Origin: Comamonadaceae bacterium
GTDB lineage: Bacteria; Pseudomonadota; Gammaproteobacteria; Burkholderiales; Burkholderiaceae_C
Reading direction: 5' to 3'
Length of the DNA: 35,450 nucleotides
Assembly (NCBI GenBank): GCA_947450255.1
Contig: CANFVA010000011.1
Location: 1-35,450, forward strand
Shown: one piece after another, positions 22,863 to 25,502 of the stretch
How the letters are laid out: each line of letters begins with the position of its first letter
Position numbering within the stretch: position 1 is the stretch's first letter
The notes under the pieces: model-generated
The model's input: the letters and a program-made list of their open reading frames with translations, nothing else
The model's database searches: none
What the model was told of the DNA's origin: nothing
Made by a program: the position numbers and the translations under genes

Positions 22863-25502
22863 TCATGCGGTTTTGGATACCCGGTAACCGGTACCGGTCG
22901 CGTTACCAATTTCACCCCACTGGGCGGCACTGAGGTAGGCCAGCTGCGCCCGGGTGAACCCGCTTATCTGCTGCGTGCTCATTACATGGAGCTGGTCCGT
23001 ACGCAATGCAATCACATCATCACGGTCTAGGCGTCCGATTTGTGCGCCCGAAAGGCCACTGATATCGAGTCCGGCAGCAATCTTGCTATCGGCGATACCT
23101 GCGACCGCAGTGAGCGCAATACCCATCTGCTGTGCCGTGGTCAGCGCAGAAATCACCTGATCTACCTGTGTTGCATTCAAGCGTCCGACCTGCCCCATCG
23201 ATAAGGCTTTGGTTTGGCTGGCACTCAGGTTGCCTACGTTGATGCTGCTAAACGACGTGACGGAGATCGCAGAGACTTGGGATGTCGTCAATTGTGAGAC
23301 CTGGTCACTGCGCAAGCCGGCAATGGCCGAGGCACTCAATTTCCCAATCTCAGACTCCTTCAAGGCCTTCACCTGTGCCGTACTCATTGCCTCGATCTGC
23401 GTTCCCTTAAAGGCGCCCAGCGTCTGGTCGCTGAGCAGCCGCATCTGGGCGGTTGACAGGCCAGCCAGCTGACTGCCTTGTAAACCGGCTCCAAAATTGG
23501 AGCCCAACTGGCGCAGCTCAACATCTTCGATTGCCCCAATGTCTGCCGTTGAAAACCCCGCCCAGCCCGAAGCAGTAATTGCGGCCAGTTGAATGCCATC
23601 AAATGCGTTGATATTTGTGGTACCTAAAGCAGCGATTTGGCTTGATGCCAACTGGGCGACTTGCGCTACCTTAAATTGAGAACTGTCAATCGTTCCGATC
23701 GTCGTCGCGGAAATGCCTTTGATCGCGTTTGCCGAGACCAAGCTCATCTCGCCGGCACTGAGCGTGCTTGCGGTTAAAAATTTATCGATTTGTTTAGACG
23801 TAATTTGCCCCAGCTGGGCGTTATTGAGCAGGCCGGTTGAACCAGTGACCAGGGCTGCCAATGCGTCCGCATCGATACTGCCAATGGTACCGACCGAAAT
23901 TGCATCGACTTGTGTGGTGGTGAAGCCCGTAATATTGGCCGTTGTCAGTCCGGACGCCGCGGCGGCAGTCAGCGCCTGCATGTCATTGGCATCTTGCACA
24001 TACAAGGCTTTGACATCGTTCGCGTCCAACGTTGCGACTTGTGTGCCCTTTAAAGCCAATAGGGCATTGGATTGAAGCGCGCGCAGTTGATGGGAGCCCA
24101 GGGCGGAAAACCTATTCGCATCCAACCCTGCCATCGCGTTCGCACCCAAACCGGCCACTTGGCTCGTAGTCAAGGATGCCAATTCGGTCGTACCCATGCC
24201 TGCCCAGGCGGTGGAGGACAACGCACCGAGTTGGTCCGCACTCAGGGCGGTCGTGGCATTGGTTTGCATGGCGTCGAGCTGGCTGGCCGAAAGTGCCTTG
24301 ATGACTTTGACATCCAAGGCTGCGGCTTGTTTGGTACTCAAGGTTGCCAATTGCGCGGACGAGGCGCCAATGCTGAATTTCGAATCCAGCGCAGAGACTT
24401 GGGCGGTGGTCAGTGCATTGATCACTTGCGTGCTCACACCTTTCCAAGCGGATACCGAAATAGCGGCTATTTGACTGGCACTCAATGCCGTAATTTTGTT
24501 GGGAGCCAAGGCGGTGAAGGCATTGGCCGATAGTTGACCAATCTGCGTCTCACTGAGGCTAGAAATCGTGCTCAGGCTGGCAATTTTGCTCGAAGCCAAA
24601 CCGCCGACGGTCCGCGCACTGAGCGCAGAAATTTGCGTCGTAGTCAGGGTGCCGACGACGGAGGCAGCTTGGGTCGCTGACAGACTACCTAATTGCGCGG
24701 AGGTCAATGCCACCATAGCATTCGTAGTCAAATTGCCCAGGTCAGACGCCAGCACACTAGCAATGGTTTTTGTCGAAATAGCTGCTACTTGCGAAGTGGA
24801 CAGCTTGGAAAAGTCCAGGCCGGAAATGCCGTTGCCAGTCAAGCTCCCGACCGCTGTGTCACTCAGTGCCTGGACCTGCGCTGTCCCCAAAGACGCCGTC
24901 TGTGCACCTTGGAGCGCGGAGATCGTCTTCGCGCTAAGGACTGCGACCTGCGAAGTGGACAAATTTGAAATTTGAGCGCCTGAGGTACCTGAGCCAAAAC
25001 TACTCCCCAAGGCGGCGACTTCGGATGTCGTTAAGGCGGCAATGTTTGTCGCGCTCACACCGCTCCAGGCACCGGCGGCGATCGCAGCGACCTGCGTCGT
25101 GCTTAAAGACGCGAGACTGCCCAGGCTGCCCACTTTGTCAGCACTCATGCGCGATAGGGCAGCGGCGCTCAAGTTGGTCGCTGAACCCGCTATAGCAGCC
25201 ACCTGGCCCGCGCTGGCGCCCAAACCAAAGCTGGCCCCCAAAGCGGCGACCGAAGCCGTGCTCAGTGCCGCCAGTTCGGCCGTGCTAAACCCTGCCCAGG
25301 CCGAGGCCGAGACCGCTGCCAGCTGCACGGTCGTGAGGGCTGCCACCTGCGTAGTGGTCATCGAAGCAAATTGCTTCGCAGAAATCTGCGACACCTGCTT
25401 GGCCGTCAGGCTGGCGACGGCAGTCGTGCTAATGCTAGGCAAATTAATCAGGTTGCCTCCCGCCGTGAAAGACGAGGCAGACAAAACGGAATTGATCGGC
25501 AT
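22863..25502 (-). CDS. Octapeptide-repeat protein of unknown function (~879 aa)
   Basis: Near-continuous L-[ST]-x-x-[QE]-[VIL]-x-A octads (e.g. LSTTQVAA, LTTSEVAA, LSTSQVAA, LTTAQVSA); ATG 25502 with GGAG Shine-Dalgarno (TTTGGAGTGCTTCATG). The ORF-track start (25514) is a TTG. Confidence 0.85.
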   Translation of the reverse strand: MPINSVLSASSFTAGGNLINLPSISTTAVASLTAKQVSQISAKQFASMTTTQVAALTTVQLAAVSASAWAGFSTAELAALSTASVAALGASFGLGASAGQVAAIAGSATNLSAAALSRMSADKVGSLGSLASLSTTQVAAIAAGAWSGVSATNIAALTTSEVAALGSSFGSGTSGAQISNLSTSQVAVLSAKTISALQGAQTASLGTAQVQALSDTAVGSLTGNGISGLDFSKLSTSQVAAISTKTIASVLASDLGNLTTNAMVALTSAQLGSLSATQAASVVGTLTTTQISALSARTVGGLASSKIASLSTISSLSETQIGQLSANAFTALAPNKITALSASQIAAISVSAWKGVSTQVINALTTAQVSALDSKFSIGASSAQLATLSTKQAAALDVKVIKALSASQLDAMQTNATTALSADQLGALSSTAWAGMGTTELASLTTSQVAGLGANAMAGLDANRFSALGSHQLRALQSNALLALKGTQVATLDANDVKALYVQDANDMQALTAAAASGLTTANITGFTTTQVDAISVGTIGSIDADALAALVTGSTGLLNNAQLGQITSKQIDKFLTASTLSAGEMSLVSANAIKGISATTIGTIDSSQFKVAQVAQLASSQIAALGTTNINAFDGIQLAAITASGWAGFSTADIGAIEDVELRQLGSNFGAGLQGSQLAGLSTAQMRLLSDQTLGAFKGTQIEAMSTAQVKALKESEIGKLSASAIAGLRSDQVSQLTTSQVSAISVTSFSSINVGNLSASQTKALSMGQVGRLNATQVDQVISALTTAQQMGIALTAVAGIADSKIAAGLDISGLSGAQIGRLDRDDVIALRTDQLHVMSTQQISGFTRAQLAYLSAAQWGEIGNATGTGYRVSKTA

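Follow-up and report, generated by a model that had tools for sequence, protein, structure and literature searches.

The 35,450-nucleotide stretch of DNA analysed here (the window) encodes an octad-repeat protein that would form a long solenoid and that is likely to be a secreted or surface rod. In this protein, four cassettes marked by a tryptophan and an FG motif (the W/FG supermodule) would each be a five-octad stretch of solenoid, which old internal duplications copied together with longer stretches around it. We give this joint explanation a probability of about 0.6.

An additional member of the ALTTAQ repeat family

The gene (22863..25502, minus strand) begins with an ATG at 25502, with a GGAG seven bases upstream, and encodes 879 amino acids that include about 104 octads. 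This ATG, which corresponds to residue 5 of an open reading frame track starting four codons earlier with a TTG, is probably the real start; the residue numbers used below (W73, F96, etc.) are counted from the start of the TTG track.

A Pfam-A search with the 879-aa protein gave a single family exceeding its cut-off, PF20080 (ALTTAQ repeat), which matches 20 stretches with 162.1 bits (E 2.1e-48), above the gathering threshold of 26.4 bits. The NCBIfam search gave no family match, and neither a signal peptide nor a further domain was recognised in the protein. Like other ALTTAQ proteins, it displays the octad consensus L-[ST]-[TA]-x-Q-[VIL]-A-A across nearly its whole length, but its octads are more degenerate than those of most relatives and its W/FG cassettes are absent from all other members examined. 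Judged from its sequence, it is one more ALTTAQ repeat protein, and the repeat family to which it belongs was already known. Among the papers searched, none uses the words ALTTAQ or HeliScrew, and the string PF20080 matched unrelated ones only.

On one side, the gene is flanked by a flavin monooxygenase-like gene and, on the other, by a gene encoding an M17 (leucyl-type) aminopeptidase and two LptF/LptG genes. The genome (2.7 Mb in 210 contigs, about 86% complete) carries other ALTTAQ frames on three contigs, designated C47, C56 and C87.

Octad register and organization of the W/FG cassettes

Segmentation of the protein yields 104 octads with hydrophobic slots, slot 1 being occupied mostly by L, I, F, M or V and slot 6 mostly by V, I, L or W. 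These core slots are preserved across about 100 octads. The protein contains six Trp and 19 Phe. All six Trp occupy slot 6, and the four cassette Phe occupy slot 5, usually a Gln, each of them three octads past its Trp; the spacing is therefore 3 x 8 - 1, i.e. 23 residues. The initial annotation had placed the four pairs correctly (W73/F96, W150/F173, W357/F380 and W651/F674 in TTG-track numbering, all 23 residues apart), and W437 and W866, which it had also pointed out, are the sole further Trp of the protein.

The four cassettes, all on the minus strand, lie at 25185..25313 (copy 1, residues 68-110, W73/F96), 24954..25082 (copy 2, residues 145-187, W150/F173), 24333..24461 (copy 3, residues 352-394, W357/F380) and 23451..23579 (copy 4, residues 646-688, W651/F674). 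Each consists of five consecutive octads with an uninterrupted period (e.g. VSASAWAG FSTAELAA LSTASVAA LGASFGLG ASAGQVAA): an octad with Trp in slot 6, two ordinary octads, an LGxxFGxG octad and an xxxxQ[VIL]xx octad, all in step. In copy 3, the FG octad reads LDSKFSIG instead of LGxxFGxG. Each Phe had been described as lying in an octad-breaking insertion. This does not hold: the register is intact in all four cassettes, only the consensus being lost, and the AlphaFold2 (AF2) model of copy 4 likewise displays one short helix per octad at this place.

A block starting at W437 (24099..24218, minus strand) had been proposed to resemble the cassettes while lacking the FG. Indeed, it is a related, degenerate fifth copy, scoring 31 bits versus 69-82 bits for the four others, and its FG is lost, the F being replaced by A in the corresponding octad (LGANAMAG).

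Internal duplications

Ungapped self-comparison of the protein reveals a large duplication, whose first arm (24531..25094, minus strand, residues 141-328) aligns with the second one (23028..23591, minus strand, residues 642-829) at an offset of 501, over 188 residues and with 39% identity. It scores 128, whereas 300 shuffles of the octads, with the inserts kept in place, gave 73.8 at most. Furthermore, both arms carry an off-register insert at the corresponding position, VVGT at 286 in the first and VISA at 787 in the second. The next self-matches link residues 137-205 to 344-412, 58-105 to 135-182, 40-106 to 618-684 and 33-106 to 317-390, and the first five self-matches, including the large duplication, score 128, 86, 80, 79 and 78, all over the shuffle maximum of 74; another one, between 324-453 and 618-747, scores 66, under this maximum.

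Since the duplication scores go beyond the octad-shuffle maximum, the four cassettes are homologous parts of larger copied segments, and the constant Trp-Phe spacing results from this descent. The initial annotation, which took the spacing as a sign of a selected unit, was right about the existence of a higher-order unit, but the spacing reflects descent by duplication rather than independent selection for this distance.

Predicted structure

Each octad is predicted to form one short helix, and the helices would wind into a long screw-like solenoid. The AF2 model of residues 614-749, in which copy 4 is modelled at pLDDT 94, has a pLDDT of 93.9 and a pTM of 0.85, values that may be inflated as the alignment rows were four internal relatives from the same protein; it shows one short helix per octad, including the FG octad. 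The single-sequence model of the whole protein is poor (pLDDT 55), and the matches of the fold search launched from it were uninformative.

By sequence, the closest solved chain is HeliScrew4 (PDB 9zem, E 2.7e-17 to the cassette profile). This 120-residue octad-repeat chain aligns with the cassette profile without any gap but is made of regular LTPEQIAA-type octads devoid of the W/FG cassette. The best Foldseek matches are to mesothelin (PDB 7ued and 8cx3), with a probability of up to 1.00, yet they are weak (E 6e-3, TM 0.35-0.46). In mesothelin, short helices form a right-handed spiral whose repeats span 27-37 residues, mostly with three helices per circle (PMC10035497). The likeness between the two proteins is one of shape only: mesothelin is human, its ARM/HEAT-type repeats vary in length, and its identity to the window protein is about 15%. 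No ARM or HEAT Pfam match was found in the window protein. Matches to LRR proteins of the PDB (acid-labile subunit, LRIG1 and VLR) were discarded, as they are probably due to the periodic Leu (24 = 3 x 8).

Within the solenoid, the Trp would fill the hydrophobic core slot 6 and the Phe would fill slot 5 three octads later. If one superhelical turn takes about 3.4 octads, three octads would amount to just under one turn, and W and F may pack between adjacent turns, in a local variation on the core.

Distribution of the cassette

The W/FG cassette is known from one sequence only. Among 103 genomes of the genus, none yielded an orthologue of the protein, the best matches being generic and about 30-40% identical. 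Outside the four cassettes, a profile built from them reached 40 bits at most, in searches that covered 103 genomes of the genus, 301 of the family and 369 of the class; for the class, matches were limited to E at most 1e-6. The cassette was found in none of the ALTTAQ proteins fetched and in none of five ALTTAQ proteins from Rhizobium, Shinella and Pseudomonas plasmids. The conservation of the W and FG positions in homologues, which the initial annotation had in view, was thus not seen among relatives that are all at the paralogue level (about 30-40% identity), with no orthologue among them. A DNA pattern of the cassette gave 49 sites in 85,462 species genomes, none of them within an octad repeat; this pattern is exact, matches three of the four window copies and misses divergence such as that of copy 3. 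Whole-protein searches of genome contigs and viral contigs, in which exact-peptide seeding reaches close relatives only, gave no relatives.

Two frames from genus relatives (L109 and L113) were considered as cassette carriers and rejected: they have an F in slot 5 (LGAAFAKA), but their W lies elsewhere and they lack FGxG. The two octad proteins, which are related to each other, short (about 740 aa) and stand-alone, have a large internal duplication of their own, of about 290 residues. Several ALTTAQ genes of complete relatives (L086, L094 and L096) seem to be broken into two or more frames within one region, which could reflect frameshifts in the repeat or an assembly error.

Putative secretion and role

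The window protein is probably a solenoid that is either secreted by a type I system or located at the surface, and it would act as a secreted or surface-exposed rod, either adhesin-like or as a spacer. Its export would proceed by type I secretion, as suggested for a relative encoded beside a type I secretion system (T1SS) in the same genome. In contig C87, hlyB-like and hlyD genes immediately precede, on the same strand, an ALTTAQ frame of 1710 residues (L067, L204/L207). This organization suggests a type I secretion operon, with an hlyB-like match that falls below its curated cut-off (642 versus 726 bits). Furthermore, the C47 paralogue carries an RTX match and, on a Pseudomonas plasmid, a T1SS gene cluster and an ALTTAQ gene are separated by a few genes. 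Type I-secreted proteins in general carry an uncleaved C-terminal signal, for which sequence offers no reliable signature. Unlike the C47 paralogue, the window protein is devoid of an RTX region, and no RTX nonapeptide repeats (HemolysinCabind) were found in it. No secretion genes were found among the neighbouring ORFs scanned, and HlyB and HlyD gave no match on contig C11.

The lack of a recognised RTX or other domain, together with octads more degenerate than in many relatives and the lack of an orthologue in the genus, would also fit an ALTTAQ scaffold that is not secreted but stays in the cytoplasm, or a gene that has been drifting and decaying since duplication. However, the frame is an intact one of 879 codons with a ribosome-binding site and no stops, and its core slots have been maintained over about 100 octads, so that this alternative is rather unlikely.

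Possible selection on the cassettes

The cassette copies are old. Indeed, at identical residues, 40 codons are the same versus 35 expected from codon usage, i.e. the codons are nearly as unlike as codon usage predicts. Eight of the 43 columns are invariant in the four copies, among them W, F, G8 and G32. The conservation of W, F and these two non-consensus Gly, both in slot 8, is unlikely from slot frequencies alone, though shared descent explains it as well. Because these residues have been kept in four copies despite randomised codons, some selection on them, structural in kind, is plausible.

The initial annotation suggested a selected unit of a structural or ligand-binding kind; for a ligand-binding role, no support was found. 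Exposed FG patches at set intervals, binding a glycan, a peptide or a surface polymer, would account for the invariance of W, F and the two Gly in old copies with randomised codons, and the Phe may be exposed, since slot 5 normally carries a polar Gln. Nevertheless, such a selected binding unit is quite improbable: the cassette is missing from every relative examined, its conservation within the large duplication (40% alike, versus 39% for the whole) is no better than that of the rest, the Trp lies in a core slot and the Phe is missing from the fifth copy.

The Trp-Phe distance of 23 is seen four times, while every other distance up to 100 is seen at most twice. In shuffle tests allowing any Trp-Phe distance to win, four or more pairs share one distance with P = 3.5e-4 when residues are shuffled and P = 1.2e-3 when whole octads are shuffled. 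A meaningless chance or compositional effect of a low-complexity repeat, which forces residues into few slots in a protein with so few Trp and Phe, is already disfavoured by this last value, by duplications far over the shuffle maximum and by the gap between the scores of the cassette profile on its own copies (69-82 bits) and elsewhere (40 bits at most), and is very improbable.

Super-repeats and proposed pitch of the ALTTAQ solenoid

Among relatives, 76 octad runs were analysed, and their strongest lags repeatedly fall at 7, 10, 17, 24, 27, 34, 41 and 44 octads. The same lags are shared by distant ALTTAQ proteins (e.g. L070 and L149-L152) from the family of the window's genome and from Rhizobium, Shinella and Pseudomonas. 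The best period falls between 3.30 and 3.50 octads in 30 of the 50 runs with z above 4, versus 2.6 expected if it were uniform in frequency, in a set whose runs are related rather than independent, with several from the same protein, and part of which served to form the idea of a 3.4-octad turn. Most other runs have periods of 2.42, 5.66 or near 6.8, all of them derivable from the 17-octad repeat as harmonics or aliases. Whole turns of about 3.4 octads match every recurring lag within 0.06 turn. The window protein itself shows this periodicity poorly.

When its octads are counted without the inserts, W150, W357, W437 and W866 have phases of 106-127 degrees of a 3.4-octad turn, W73 and W651 lying outside; this shared phase may be a chance effect, and the phases are uncertain given the inserts.

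We tentatively propose, at somewhat less than even odds, that one turn of the ALTTAQ screw takes about 3.4 octads, or about 27 residues, and that duplications have been kept mainly at near-integer numbers of turns (the eight lags above), which would hold chemical faces in phase; the W/FG cassette would then be a variant, particular to its lineage, of some one and a half turns of the screw. In a rival reading, the lags would go back to a single ancestral unit of 17 octads, composed of 7 + 10. The shared octad lags predict a superhelical pitch and would explain the modular look of ALTTAQ proteins without invoking binding modules. This side result on family-wide lags is of wider use than the window protein itself.
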